A DNA stretch of 45,737 bases from an uncultured Caryophanales bacterium (GTDB taxonomy: Bacteria; Bacillota_I; Bacilli_A; RF39; UBA660), in the NCBI GenBank assembly GCA_946623125.1, contig CAMOQR010000009.1:1-45737 (forward strand), in the 5' to 3' direction. Shown piece after piece: positions 10,340-45,737 of the stretch. The position numbers and the translations under genes are program-made. Positions within the stretch are counted from its first letter, which is position 1. Every line of letters begins with the position of its first letter. The notes beneath the pieces were generated by a model, which did no database searches, was not told the DNA's origin, and saw only the letters and a list, made by a program, of their open reading frames with translations.

Positions 10340-10461
10340 CATTATATTGAGGGATGCCATAAAAAAGTTCTTTAGACAAACCAAAGAACTTTTTATATTA
10401 CTTATGAAAAGTCCTCGGTAGGATTTATTTGAATACCTACTGTCTATGGCACCTACAAATT
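10340..10461 (-). promoter_or_regulatory. L10 (rplJ) autoregulatory leader
   Basis: The minus-strand RNA contains AGACAGTAGGT and CCTACCGAGG, the paired kink-turn elements typical of Firmicutes L10 leaders, followed by a terminator hairpin just before rplJ. GGTGCCAT at the 5' side (10445-10452) can also pair with ATGGCATC at 10353-10360, giving a competing fold. By family knowledge, excess L10-L12 binds this RNA and represses rplJL. Confidence 0.8.
10361..10395 (-). terminator. Attenuator hairpin in the rplJ leader
   Basis: AAAAGTTCTTT pairs with AAAGAACTTTT (11 bp) and is followed by a T run before the rplJ ribosome binding site. Its place in the leader marks it as a conditional terminator. 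Confidence 0.75.
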
Positions 10462-10467
10462 GTCTTT

Positions 10468-33132: not shown

Positions 33133-33363
33133 AAAAAAAAATTATTATAAATATAAGGACGAATTACTCGCGGTACCACCTTATTTTATAATAATTAATT
33201 ATTATACACTCAAATAGTTAACGCCTATATACGTCTATATCTACATATCGATATAAAAGTTCAGAAGCCATACATTACATCTTATTATTACTCATTTTCA
33301 CCAACCAGAGCTCTCTAAAAATAACAACTTATATAACGCTCTTCATCAAAACATTTCAAATAT
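33133..33363 (-). promoter_or_regulatory. T-box riboswitch leader of metG
   Basis: The minus strand carries the invariant T-box TGGTACCGCG (33169-33178). Downstream, TATTATAAAATAAGG (33179-33193) pairs with 33143-33158 to form a terminator followed by nine Ts. Stem I features precede it: GATGAAGAG near the 5' end, AGAGAGC and GGTTGGTGAAAA at the apex, and CTTC closing the base. The 3' side of the specifier loop holds three ATG triplets (33269-33280), so whichever is used the codon is Met. Uncharged tRNA-Met would prevent termination and raise metG. Confidence 0.92.
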
Positions 33364-41433: not shown

Positions 41434-42030
41434 TTATTCTATTATTTTACGATCAGACAACGCTCTTTCTAAAGTCAAACTATCAACATATTCCATATCA
41501 GCACCAATAGGAACACCATTAGCAATTTTTGTAATCTTTAAAGGTAATCCATCAAGAATTTTTTTAATATATAAAGAAGTTGTTTCTCCCTCAATACTTG
41601 GCTTAAAAGCAAAAATAATTTCATCAAAATTCTCATTGTGAATTCTATCAAGTAATTTATCAATACCAATATCCTCAGGATTTATACCATCAAGCGGAGA
41701 AATTAACCCATTTAAAACATGATATTTTCCCTTAAACATACCTATTTTTTCAAATAAAAATACACTTTTAACATCTTCGACAACACACAAAATATTAGAA
41801 GAACGAAATTCATCAGAACAAATAGAACAAATATCGTTTTCAGTAAGAACATTACAAATAGAACAAGGATGAACTTTATTTCTTACATCATCCAAACTAT
41901 CTTTAAATAATTGAATCTGATCATCATCCAAATCAAAAATAGAAAAAGCAAATCTTTCAGCAGTTTTTTCACCAACACTTGGTAAAAATTTAAAAGATTC
42001 GATTAAATTTTTTAAACTATCAGGATACAT
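41434..42030 (-). CDS. recR: Recombination protein RecR
   Basis: 198 aa, standard length. N-terminal helix-hairpin-helix (FLPSVGEKTAERFAF), Cys4 zinc finger CSICNVLTENDICSIC at about residues 56-71, then the Toprim domain with ILCVVEDVKSV and the conserved ATFAFKPSIEGE equivalent IIFAFKPSIEGETTSLYI. Acts with RecF/RecO to load RecA. Three bp after ybaB. Confidence 0.97.
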   Translation of the reverse strand: MYPDSLKNLIESFKFLPSVGEKTAERFAFSIFDLDDDQIQLFKDSLDDVRNKVHPCSICNVLTENDICSICSDEFRSSNILCVVEDVKSVFLFEKIGMFKGKYHVLNGLISPLDGINPEDIGIDKLLDRIHNENFDEIIFAFKPSIEGETTSLYIKKILDGLPLKITKIANGVPIGADMEYVDSLTLERALSDRKIIE

Positions 42031-42032
42031 AA

Positions 42033-42329
42033 TTAAAATAGACCTGGAATATTACCAAATTTTCCCATTTTTGATTCAGTCATTTCATCTATTTTCTTGT
42101 TAGCATCATTAATAGCAACAACAATCATATCCTGTAAAGCCTCAATATCATCTTTATCTAATGTCTCATCAGAATTAATCTCAACCTTAACAGCCTCACG
42201 AGTACCTTTTAAAGTAACTTTAACAAACGAACTCTCTCCAACAAATTCCTTAGAATCAATCTCATTTTTAGTTTTTAACATATCCTTTTGTAAAGCCTGT
42301 GCTTGTTTTAACATAGCTTGCATATTCAT
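42033..42329 (-). CDS. YbaB/EbfC family nucleoid-associated protein
   Basis: 98 aa, the YaaK equivalent between dnaX and recR. Starts MNMQAMLKQAQALQKDM, followed by conserved VKVTLKGTREAVKVEI and C-terminal DEMTESKMGKFGNIPGLF. DNA-binding dimer of unclear function, frequently co-transcribed with dnaX-recR. AAGGAG precedes the ATG at 42329. Confidence 0.95.
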   Translation of the reverse strand: MNMQAMLKQAQALQKDMLKTKNEIDSKEFVGESSFVKVTLKGTREAVKVEINSDETLDKDDIEALQDMIVVAINDANKKIDEMTESKMGKFGNIPGLF

Positions 42330-42347: not shown

Positions 42348-44102
42348 TTAAACAAATTCAACAATATCTTCTCCAAAAAGTGATATTGCACTATTAGATA
42401 TTATATCATTTTTCTTAATTTCTTCAAATAAAAGATCAGGTTCGGGTATAACATCATAATGAATACCTTGTTTTAATTTTGAAATATACTCATTTTTTAA
42501 TTTATTCCATTGATCATCAGAAACAAATGCAATATTTTTATTAGAATTGGTAATTTTATTATAAACCTCATTAATTTTGACAAGATTCACTAAATTCTGA
42601 TTAACAGAAGCATCCGTTTCATAGCTTATAATTAGATCATTAGAACCAACAACTCTAATTTTACCATCAAGTAAAGAATTAACTAAATATCCTATTTCTT
42701 GATCAAATGAAAAATCTTTTAATAAATTAAAATTATCAATTTCAAGTTTCAATAATGACTTATCAGCAGTAGCAAAAGTATTATTAATACGAACCTTAAT
42801 AATATCATCAATATTAATTATTTTAGGAATTTCATCTAAATTTTCATTTGAATCAATATCGTCAGAAAGATAATCGACACTTTTAATTGAACTGTTGTTT
42901 TTTTCTTGGGATAAATTATTGTTTTCAATATCAGAAGAATTACTAATAACATCATTTTTTAAAATATCAGAAGATAATTTTTTTTCAACAGGAGAATTAT
43001 CCTGATTTTTATCAATTAAATTATTAGTACTTGTAGTTTTAGAATCATTGATATTATCTTTTTTTATAACAAAGTCATCAATAAAATTCAAAATTAACAT
43101 TTCAACATAAACTTTAGTATTACTTGCCTTTTTAATATCAAAAAGTCTTTCATTTAAAAGAGATACAAAACTTTGAAATAAATTTAAAGGATAATCTAAA
43201 ACTGTTGATTTTAAATAATAATTTACAATTAGATCACGACAATAATCAATTAATTGAATCATAATCTGTATCAAATTTTTTCCACCATTATTAAAATAAG
43301 AAATATCAGATAAAAAAGATTGAATATCACCAGAAAAAATATGAGAAACAAATTTTGAAAGATCATCATCAGAAATAATACCATTAACCTCATTAAAATC
43401 ATTAATAGTAATTTTAGAAGAAGTATAAGCCGTCATTTTATCTAAATATCCTAATGCATCTCTTAGTCCACCATCAGATAATAATGATATTTTTTTTAAT
43501 ACAATATCATCTATATCAATTTTTTCTTCATTACAAATATGTGACAATCGATCAAAAATTACATCATCAGAAATTCTTTTAAAAGAAAAACATTGACATC
43601 TAGAAACAATCGTTTCAGGAACCTTCTGAGGATCTGTAGTTGCAAGTATAAACACAACATGCTCAGGAGGTTCTTCTAAAGTTTTTAACAAAGCATTAAA
43701 AGCACTATCCGAAAGCATGTGAACCTCATCAATAATATAGACTTTATAGCGTAATTCACTCGGAACCAAATTAATATTATTTTTTAATTCACGAATCTCA
43801 TCAACTCCATTATTAGATGCAGCATCTATTTCAATAATATCAACACAATCTTTAGAAAAAGATACAGCACAAGCACTGCAATTATGACAAGCACTACCAT
43901 CAACAGGAGATAAACAATTAATATTTCTCGCAAAAATTTTAGAAACAGTAGTTTTTCCAGTACCACGAGAGCCAAAAAACATATAAGCATGTGAAAAATT
44001 GTTATGAATAATAGAATTTTTTAATGTTTTAATAATTGGATCTTGCCCAACAACTGAATCAAAGTCCATAGGACGATACTTTCGATATAAAGCATGATAC
44101 AT
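42348..44102 (-). CDS. dnaX: DNA polymerase III gamma/tau subunit
   Basis: 584 aa. AAA+ clamp loader: Walker A GSRGTGKTT near residues 44-52, a zinc finger with four Cys (CLSPVDGSACHNCSAC to DC, residues about 63-83), DEVHMLS and LEEPPEHVVFILATT with sensor 1, then oligomerisation domain. The linker at about residues 355-430 is Asn/Asp/Ser-rich and low complexity, followed by a tau-type C-terminal domain. I see no A-rich slippery site that would make a shorter form. Start ATG at 44102 after GGAGG. Confidence 0.97.
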   Translation of the reverse strand: MYHALYRKYRPMDFDSVVGQDPIIKTLKNSIIHNNFSHAYMFFGSRGTGKTTVSKIFARNINCLSPVDGSACHNCSACAVSFSKDCVDIIEIDAASNNGVDEIRELKNNINLVPSELRYKVYIIDEVHMLSDSAFNALLKTLEEPPEHVVFILATTDPQKVPETIVSRCQCFSFKRISDDVIFDRLSHICNEEKIDIDDIVLKKISLLSDGGLRDALGYLDKMTAYTSSKITINDFNEVNGIISDDDLSKFVSHIFSGDIQSFLSDISYFNNGGKNLIQIMIQLIDYCRDLIVNYYLKSTVLDYPLNLFQSFVSLLNERLFDIKKASNTKVYVEMLILNFIDDFVIKKDNINDSKTTSTNNLIDKNQDNSPVEKKLSSDILKNDVISNSSDIENNNLSQEKNNSSIKSVDYLSDDIDSNENLDEIPKIINIDDIIKVRINNTFATADKSLLKLEIDNFNLLKDFSFDQEIGYLVNSLLDGKIRVVGSNDLIISYETDASVNQNLVNLVKINEVYNKITNSNKNIAFVSDDQWNKLKNEYISKLKQGIHYDVIPEPDLLFEEIKKNDIISNSAISLFGEDIVEFV

Positions 44103-44136: not shown

Positions 44137-44171
44137 AAAAGACAAAGAATTTACTTATTTCTTTGTCTTTT
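44137..44171 (-). terminator. Hairpin at the end of tadA
   Basis: AAAAGACAAAGAA pairs with TTCTTTGTCTTTT (13 bp) over the tadA stop; the following T tract is short, so termination may be partial. Confidence 0.6.
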
Positions 44172-44603
44172 AAAAAAATCCGATAATAATTTTTTTGAAT
44201 AATCACTACTTATATTTGTAATAAAATTAACTCTTGAATTTGTTGAATCAGAAACATAGAAGATTTCAGATATTATTTTTTCATAGGATTTATCAGAATT
44301 ATTTAATGCAGAAAAAACATTCTTAATTCTAGCCTGCTTTATCGCACTAGAACACATTGGACAAGGATCTAAAGTTACATAAATATCACAATCATCCAGT
44401 CTCCAATTATTCAAAATTTTTGAAGCATTTTGAATTGCTAAAATTTCTGCATGTGAAGTACAACAATTATCTGTTTCTTTTAAATTGTGAGCAGAGGCAA
44501 TAATTTTATTATTTTTAACAATAACGGCACCTACAGGAACCTCATTCAATTCTAATGCTTGTTCAGCCTCTTTAAATGCAAGATTCATATATTCTAAGTT
44601 CAT
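44151..44603 (-). CDS. tadA: tRNA-specific adenosine deaminase
   Basis: 150 aa from ATG at 44603, after GGAGG; 20 extra codons upstream run back through the SRP RNA gene and are not coding. Zinc deaminase motifs: SHAEILAIQ with the His ligand and catalytic Glu near residue 54, and PCPMCSSAI near residue 84. Converts A34 to inosine in tRNA-Arg. Next to the SRP RNA and dnaX as yaaJ is in Bacillus. Confidence 0.95.
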   Translation of the reverse strand: MNLEYMNLAFKEAEQALELNEVPVGAVIVKNNKIIASAHNLKETDNCCTSHAEILAIQNASKILNNWRLDDCDIYVTLDPCPMCSSAIKQARIKNVFSALNNSDKSYEKIISEIFYVSDSTNSRVNFITNISSDYSKKLLSDFFKRQRNK

Positions 44604-44623
44604 ACAATCCTCCAAAATAAAAA

Positions 44624-44695
44624 GTGCACATGAAAGGAGGACCTTAAGGCTGCTATTTTCCAATCCTGACCTGGTTCAATCACTTTCATTGCACA
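44624..44695 (-). ncRNA. ffs: Signal recognition particle RNA, short 4.5S type
   Basis: The minus strand contains the SRP core: ACCAGGTCAGGA on one side, the GGAAAATAGCAGCC segment with an A-rich bulge on the other, flanked by long complementary arms (GTGCAATGAAAG with CTTTCATGTGCAC). About 72 nt, so only the hairpin (helix 8) is present with no Alu domain, unlike the 270-nt Bacillus scRNA but like Mollicutes. A run TTTTTATTTT follows the closing arm and would terminate it. Binds Ffh for co-translational targeting. Confidence 0.93.
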
Positions 44696-44703
44696 AATTA
44701 ATT

Positions 44704-44785: not shown

Positions 44786-44851
44786 AATAATAGAAAACAA
44801 AAATTAAATAATATCTACGAAATATCTATTTATTTGTTTTCAACCACTTTC

Positions 44852-44960
44852 TGTGGATTAAAGATTCACATGAAACATCTAAAATAAGAATTAAATACTT
44901 TAAAAAGTCATCTAAATTATTTCCCGGGAAATATTTTGATTTTGATTTCTAACCATTTTC
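44852..44960. repeat. Array unit 1 (edge unit, degenerate parS)
   Basis: Box TGTGGATTA 44852-44860; parS-like 44862-44877 with three mismatches (AGATTCACATGAAACA); exact Noc site 44919-44932. Confidence 0.85.
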
Positions 44961-45063
44961 TGTGGATTAAAGTTTCACGTGAAACATTTAAAAAAGAAAT
45001 AAGTACTAAAAATAATTAATTATTTCCCAGGAAATATTTTGATTTTGATTTCTAGACACTTTC
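44961..45063. repeat. Array unit 2 (6 bp shorter)
   Basis: Box TGTGGATTA 44961-44969; parS 44971-44986, 15 of 16 matches (first base A); Noc site 45022-45035 with CCCAGG instead of CCCGGG. The deletion lies between parS and the Noc site. Confidence 0.88.
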
Positions 45064-45172
45064 TGTGGATTAAAGTTTCACGTGAAACATCTAAAATAAG
45101 AATTAAATACTTTAAAAAGTCATCTAAATTATTTCCCGGGAAATATTTTTATTTTGATTTCTAATCATTTTC
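45064..45172. repeat. Array unit 3
   Basis: Box TGTGGATTA 45064-45072; parS 45074-45089, 15 of 16; exact Noc site 45131-45144. Confidence 0.9.
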
Positions 45173-45282
45173 TGTGGATTAATGTTTGACGTGAAACATC
45201 TAAAATGAGAAATAAATACTATAAAAAGATAACTAAATTATTTCCCGGGAAATATTTTTTATTTTGATTTCTAAACATTTTC
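45173..45282. repeat. Array unit 4
   Basis: Box TGTGGATTA 45173-45181; parS 45183-45198 with one C-to-G change (TGTTTGACGTGAAACA); exact Noc site 45240-45253. Confidence 0.9.
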
Positions 45283-45390
45283 TGTGGATTAAAGTTTCAC
45301 GTGAAACATTTAAAATAAGAATTAAAAACCTTAAAAAGTCAACTAAATTATTTCCCAAGAAATATTATATTCTGATTTCTAGACACTTTC
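45283..45390. repeat. Array unit 5
   Basis: Box TGTGGATTA 45283-45291; parS 45293-45308, 15 of 16; Noc site 45350-45363 with two changes (CCCAAG). Confidence 0.88.
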
Positions 45391-45499
45391 TGTGGATAAA
45401 TGTTTCACGTGAAACATTTAAAATAAGAAATAAATACTATAAAAAGATAACTAAATTATTTCCCGGGAAATATTTTGATTTTGATTTTTAGACACTTTC
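45391..45499. repeat. Array unit 6 (all three sites perfect)
   Basis: Consensus DnaA box TGTGGATAA 45391-45399; perfect parS 45401-45416, extended to a 24-bp palindrome at 45397-45420; exact Noc site 45458-45471. Confidence 0.93.
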
Positions 45500-45608
45500 T
45501 GTGGATAAATGTTTCACGTGAAACATTTAAAATAAGAAATAAATACTATAAAAAAACAACTAAAATATTTCCCGGGAAATATTTTGATTTTGATTTTTAG
45601 ACACTTTC
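45500..45608. repeat. Array unit 7 (all three sites perfect)
   Basis: Consensus DnaA box 45500-45508; perfect parS 45510-45525 within a 24-bp palindrome (45506-45529); exact Noc site 45567-45580 within a 24-bp palindrome (45562-45585). Confidence 0.93.
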
Positions 45609-45716
45609 TGTGAGTTAAAGTATCATGTGAAACATCTAAAATAAGAAATAAATACTATAAAAAACAACTAAATTATTTCCCAGGAAATATTTTGATTTTG
45701 ATTTCTAATCATTTTC
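45609..45716. repeat. Array unit 8 (degenerate)
   Basis: Box degraded to TGTGAGTTA 45609-45617; parS-like 45619-45634 with three mismatches (AGTATCATGTGAAACA); Noc site 45675-45688 with CCCAGG. All three sites have decayed together here. Confidence 0.85.
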
Positions 45717-45737
45717 TGTGGATTAAAGTTTCACGTG
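45717..45737. repeat. Array unit 9, cut by the window end
   Basis: Box TGTGGATTA 45717-45725; the first 11 bases of parS from 45727, matching all but the first base. Confidence 0.85.

Follow-up and report, generated by a model that had tools for sequence, protein, structure and literature searches.

Interleaved parS and NBS palindromes between gyrA and tadA, a probable shared loading locus for ParB and Noc beside the origin of an uncultured RF39 bacterium

Introduction

ParB and Noc are paralogous CTP-dependent DNA clamps, Noc being thought to derive from ParB by duplication. In the bacteria studied so far, the two proteins use separate sites and fulfil different jobs; in Bacillus subtilis, about ten parS sites are dispersed near the origin. 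For Noc, about 70 sites have been described in B. subtilis (PMC4331003) and 41 ChIP loci in Staphylococcus aureus (PMC5540599). A helix is required for the membrane binding of Bacillus Noc (PMC4331003, PMC8429893), and the membrane association of the B. subtilis protein was abolished when its first 10 residues were missing (PMC4331003). The specificity for the Noc-binding palindrome (NBS) or for parS is set by Q173/K179/K184/R201 versus R173/G201, a single lysine, at 179 or 184, being sufficient for NBS reading (PMC7383237).

The present work deals with a stretch of 45,737 nucleotides (the window) from an uncultured Caryophanales bacterium (GTDB order RF39, family UBA660), at the end of which parS and NBS palindromes alternate. 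This locus resembles the ParB (Spo0J)-parS system of B. subtilis by its parS sequence, its ParB residues, its soj-parB operon and its clustering near the origin, but parS is here packed together with NBS in one interval of ~0.5-3 kb. It also resembles the Noc-NBS occlusion system of B. subtilis and S. aureus by the site ATTTCCCGGGAAAT, the residues Q173/K179/R201, the gene order rsmG-noc-soj-parB and the GERR and ENLQR motifs, whereas the Noc proteins of the clade are devoid of the membrane helix and of K184, carry a long motif-bearing linker and face only 0-20 exact NBS, about half of them in one origin interval and interleaved with parS. As in the DnaA-box clusters near oriC, a DnaA-box-like 9-mer recurs in almost all units of this species, but this 9-mer is not conserved in the family, in which parS and NBS are constant. 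Finally, both site types are also found in mParSpot (PMC11109969), an engineered ParB-ParS and Noc-NBS imaging system; in this artificial system they are separate labels, whereas the arrays described here are natural and mixed. The initial annotation of this DNA knew of no described array in which the two sites alternate, and none was found in the literature searched, which covered few subscription journals and yielded nothing relevant on parS/NBS arrays, Noc in Mollicutes or RF39 segregation. The components are known; what appears to be new, as judged from that literature, is that the two site types are naturally interleaved at a single origin locus while the Noc of the clade has no membrane helix.

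Results

Sites of the array

The tandem array detected by Tandem Repeats Finder (score 1318, Table 1) starts ~20 bp before position 44852, the start given by the initial annotation. Eight copies of the NBS palindrome ATTTCCCGGGAAAT (five exact, two one base off and one two bases off) alternate with the parS 16-mer, for which eight complete copies (two exact, four with one mismatch and two with three) and a ninth, incomplete because the contig stops within it, were detected. Two positions in each half site distinguish the two palindromes. They are separated by 50-56 bp from parS to NBS and by 52-54 bp from NBS to parS. Outside the array, the NBS matches of the window at ≤3 mismatches amount to one site with three mismatches; the resulting count of 9 was reached by no shuffle, and 8 parS copies were reached in 0/100 shuffles, the chance mean being 0.31. 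These site scans bear out the eight NBS (five exact) alternating at constant phase with nine parS that had been reported from the sequence, and the period of 109 bp and the position next to the origin were likewise recovered by Tandem Repeats Finder and by the gene map.

The DnaA-box-like sequence TAATCCACA/TTATCCACA is present in 8/9 window units, two copies being exact, and two more 9-mers of this type lie on contig C17 (L008:10765 and 10874). In these units (44852-45725), this DnaA-box-like 9-mer (TGTGGATTA/TGTGGATAA) is located between NBS and parS. In other regions, exact DnaA boxes were found in 4/91, above nearly all permuted 9-mers. The DnaA box as a general third component of the arrays was rejected, since it is enriched overall yet confined to a minority of regions.

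Table 1. Coordinates of the array, its palindromes and the neighbouring genes in the window.
Feature	Coordinates	Strand	Remarks
recR + yaaK/YbaB	41434..42329	-	conserved neighbours in origin region
dnaX, DNA polymerase III tau/gamma	42348..44102	-	no NBS in linker, unlike many relatives
tadA, tRNA adenosine deaminase	44151..44663	-	listed start TTG, overlaps ffs
ffs, bacterial small SRP RNA	44612..44703	-	Rfam RF00169, 56.3 bits; first gene past array
Tandem array	44833..45737	.	109-bp unit, 8.4 copies; runs off contig end, resumes on C17 after gyrA
parS-like AGATTCACATGAAACA	44862..44877	.	3 mismatches
NBS ATTTCCCGGGAAAT	44919..44932	.	exact
parS	44971..44986	.	14-bp core exact
NBS	45022..45035	.	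1 mismatch, ATTTCCCAGGAAAT, variant common among relatives
parS	45074..45089	.	14-bp core exact
NBS	45131..45144	.	exact
parS	45183..45198	.	1 mismatch
NBS	45240..45253	.	exact
parS	45293..45308	.	14-bp core exact
NBS	45350..45363	.	2 mismatches
parS	45401..45416	.	exact 16-mer
NBS	45458..45471	.	exact
parS	45510..45525	.	exact 16-mer
NBS	45567..45580	.	exact
parS-like	45619..45634	.	3 mismatches
NBS	45675..45688	.	1 mismatch
parS, ninth	45727..45737	.	truncated by contig end

Position of the array relative to the origin

The window corresponds to contig C9 in a draft genome of 1.135 Mb (41 contigs, 71% complete). Immediately behind gyrA, contig C17 ends in further units of the array that keep its orientation (C17:30690-30949). 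As the ends of C9 and C17 have an exact 55-bp repeat in common, the break is due to assembly inside a repeat, and the two contigs together hold at least ~10 units. The combined map reads rpmH / dnaA dnaN recF gyrB gyrA - array - ffs tadA dnaX yaaK recR, in which the array is located ~9 kb from the dnaA start and does not overlap the dnaA-flanking origin. C17 also encodes mnmE-mnmG-rsmG-noc-soj-parB. Thus, a continuation beyond position 45737 and the parB, noc, soj and dnaA genes, all of which the initial annotation had pointed to, were found; isolated copies of the parS core or of NBS, which it had also raised, were absent at ≤1 mismatch from the rest of this 71%-complete draft.

On the other side of the array, the TTG start listed for tadA overlaps ffs, so that a downstream ATG near 44603 is probably the true start; tadA was matched in 133/145 family genomes. 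Elsewhere in the window, Rfam searches highlighted a T-box leader (33152-33358) and a ribosomal protein L10 leader (10352-10467), both on the minus strand.

ParB and Noc proteins

The genome encodes both ParA (Soj) and ParB, and its parS sites are near the origin. ParB (305 aa) carries R173 and G201, and Noc (428 aa) carries Q173, K179 and R201 without K184; a Noc fitting the CCCGGG palindrome, on which the initial annotation had made its reading depend, is therefore encoded. Q173 and K179 are found in 30/30 sampled Noc homologs and R201 in 29, the remaining one having H201, and K184 is replaced in the Noc of the clade. In L171 (G082), in which H201 replaces R201, an exact NBS is retained. The best PDB matches of Noc are 7nfu, 7ng0 and 7ol9, its nearest solved relatives being the Geobacillus and B. 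subtilis Noc. In the phylogenetic tree, the clade Noc joins the reference Noc apart from ParB with a support of 100/96, with long-branch warnings on the ParB references. The order rsmG-noc-soj-parB is identical in L188. Against NCBIfam TIGR04285, Noc scores 281.6 bits, below the curated cut-off of 315, which is exceeded in 0/145 genomes; the matches span approximately the first 200 of 255 positions.

At its N-terminus, the clade Noc has a domain of the ParB type, in which the GERR and ENLQR motifs are present. AlphaFold predicts with confidence an N-terminal and DNA-binding part up to about residue 205 and a C-terminal domain (385-424), separated by a disordered linker (207-384). In this linker (L007:3978-5264), motifs such as NYGE, DLDSLL and a TPAEEIVKT-like one recur across the family despite the predicted disorder. 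With the starts assigned to the nearest ATG, no N-terminal amphipathic membrane helix was observed in ~50 Noc of the clade, which begin directly at the N-terminal domain. The Noc frame of this genome has just five codons upstream of the start; in G122 and G142, the noc frame is open further upstream and a longer N-terminus is possible.

Distribution and alternation in relatives

In the family, a Noc query was matched in 144/145 genomes by a Noc/ParB-type protein, a separate Noc-grade match being present in ~133. Exact NBS were found in 118/145 genomes (0 for the reversed-pattern control) and exact parS cores in 95/145. In the order sample, NBS occurred in 233/288 genomes and the reversed pattern in 2. 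The exact NBS number 0-20 per genome and do not range over most of the chromosome, about half of them lying inside one interval of ~0.1% beside the origin, and none was found in any species sampled of genera g103 and g89. In other families of the class, NBS are present in few genomes only; in one of these (G531), parS and NBS also lie between dnaX and gyrA. In another (L286, G357), exact NBS adjoin rsmG, mnmG and parB, i.e. the noc locus itself.

A parS/NBS cluster was located between gyrA and dnaX in 20 family genomes, a set picked from NBS listings. As a fair test, 30 loci were anchored on tadA and chosen blind to the sites, and 22 of these gyrA-dnaX intervals contained both sites. In this sample, 43/78 exact NBS fell in 0.11% of the genome, a ~490-fold enrichment, and alternations numbered 77 versus 61.1 ± 4.6 by permutation (p 0.0002). 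The parS-to-NBS adjacency pattern was also found in at least 114 stretches of the genome collection, all from records labelled as uncultured Bacilli, Bacillales, Erysipelotrichaceae, Tenericutes, Mollicutes, Clostridium/Clostridiales or similar; in the 114 matches, 513 neighbours were different versus 133 the same, but these counts, like those for 84 irregular clusters, are biased because a parS-NBS pair was what the loci had been chosen for, and the tadA-anchored sample supersedes them.

The 30 regular arrays fall into ~12 spacer groups, an approximate number as single linkage was applied to AT-rich sequence, with unit lengths from ~52 to 206 bp; even relatives of the same genus have alternating arrays built of other units (62 bp in G013, ~52 bp in G327). 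The same site content has been repeatedly rebuilt with new spacers, and the conservation of the sites while spacers and unit lengths change marks the palindromes, and not the repeat itself, as the functional part. An absence from close relatives, considered by the initial annotation as the sign of a local artefact, was not observed: throughout the family, the alternating sites are found again at the equivalent map position. Such a conserved placement despite different DNA between the sites suggests that both proteins act from one shared spot. A helical phasing of parS and NBS was also considered, but several Rayleigh tests on 12 array groups gave p of 0.02-0.12, which is unconvincing.

NBS within the dnaX coding sequence

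In many relatives (e.g. L198, L196, L193 and L200), dnaX carries an NBS within the coding region of its linker, at about codons 340-390. Among 49 distinct dnaX genes, the I[SA][RQ]E[IM] peptides, of the ISREI/ISQEI type, were NBS-coded in 19/19 cases and never specified by other codons; one further site is in another frame. TCC (5%) and CGG (2.5%) are rare codons, and the per-site codon probability is 6e-4. This exclusive coding despite rare codons points to a selection on the DNA and supports NBS as functional.

Genomes without Noc or with altered Noc

In six genomes without detected Noc (G011, G025, G064, G089, G112 and G136), the interval contains parS only. The array of one of them (L233, G025) consists of 13 parS palindromes with a spacing of 38-39 bp and no NBS. 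The interval is also restricted to parS in G134, in which the Noc recognition helix is altered, and that of L234 (G034), whose Noc has V173, carries nine symmetric parS variants GTTACACGTGTAAC between gyrA and tadA and no NBS. G130 is an exception, its interval carrying an NBS. Lack of Noc is associated with zero NBS (Fisher p 0.003; p 0.0002 when the two altered Noc are added). Two genomes scored without Noc (G011 and G112) still have NBS or one-mismatch NBS in dnaX, and in G041 and G050 Noc is present and the interval has parS only. Gene and site absences are uncertain, because draft MAGs make up most of the genome set and assemblies break at the array; the lack of Noc and that of NBS are correlated, in a test limited by draft incompleteness.

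Discussion

Taken together, the data are best explained by a shared ParB/Noc loading locus, given the identity of the sites, the matching proteins, the conserved position and the correlated absence. The array is likely to be a composite origin-proximal centromere between gyrA and tadA, at which both clamps would be loaded side by side. The single loading platform for both clamps proposed by the initial annotation is thus retained as the reading most consistent with the sequences (fitting ParB and Noc residues, origin position and recurrence in the family), whereas its link to membrane-tethered division inhibition is not supported. The missing helix of ~50 clade Noc and the scarcity of exact NBS argue against a chromosome-wide membrane-tethered occlusion and are better accommodated by a second clamp bound at the origin.

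A neutral tandem repeat or an assembly artefact, as could be feared from a highly repetitive array at a contig end, is hardly credible, since many genera carry these sites at the equivalent map position, often on contigs without a break, and differ in their spacers and unit lengths. That the CCCGGG palindrome is a mere parS variant bound by ParB in a plain parS array is very improbable as well: only two positions per half site separate the two palindromes and parS variants such as GTTCCACGTGGAAC and GTTACACGTGTAAC occur, but the two diagnostic positions shift together and symmetrically, yielding the known NBS, the genome encodes a distinct Noc that bears the NBS-reading residues, and most intervals without detected Noc lack NBS.

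Two further explanations assign the array another role. It could be a locus controlling replication initiation, at which Noc would restrain DnaA at the nearby origin by analogy with S. aureus, in which Noc controls replication initiation and minor ChIP peaks adjoin dnaA (PMC5540599), ParB/Soj being a second DnaA control. The ~9 kb separating the array from the dnaA start and the DnaA-box-like sequences of the window and C17 units are compatible with this role, which we nevertheless judge unlikely, because exact DnaA boxes are found in a minority of regions and the array and the dnaA-flanking origin do not overlap. The array could also serve a classical membrane-tethered nucleoid occlusion restricted to the origin region, Noc holding the origin DNA at the membrane and blocking Z rings. 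Protein family, DNA site and gene position are all the same as in that system, and Spo0J and Noc jointly prevent premature midcell Z rings in B. subtilis (PMC6852036). An amphipathic N-terminus is however not seen in ~50 clade Noc, with the proviso of the longer open frames of G122 and G142, and the few NBS are concentrated near the origin, which makes such an occlusion distinctly improbable.

In the composite centromere, one short locus would offer parS palindromes for the loading of ParB and NBS palindromes for that of Noc. ParB loaded at the array would recruit SMC and, together with ParA/Soj, segregate the origin. Noc, loaded from the interleaved sites, would spread over the same few kilobases as ParB; confined in this way, it should mark the origin and not the whole nucleoid. 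Devoid of a membrane helix, it would most likely act via its conserved C-terminal domain and its motif-bearing disordered linker, the latter recruiting a partner at the segregating origin. We therefore propose, as a tentative possibility, that the Noc of this lineage is a second centromere clamp acting through its disordered linker on a non-membrane partner, and not a whole-nucleoid occlusion factor. The regular arrays likely arise by tandem duplication of a parS-NBS unit, and the strict alternation could come from the duplication of one such pair; as alternation is also found in irregular clusters, this should not be the whole story. Interleaving would balance the loading of both clamps.

Noc as a second clamp could reflect either an early stage in the ParB/Noc duplication or a derived simplification that took place in small genomes. 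In the former case, Bacillus Noc would later have extended to sites across the chromosome and acquired its membrane helix. The lineage, with its many genomes, offers a natural system for studying how two clamps, apparently loading from one alternating array, share DNA and how a new DNA-binding specificity gained its sites, and its helix-less Noc allows one to ask what Noc does without the membrane.
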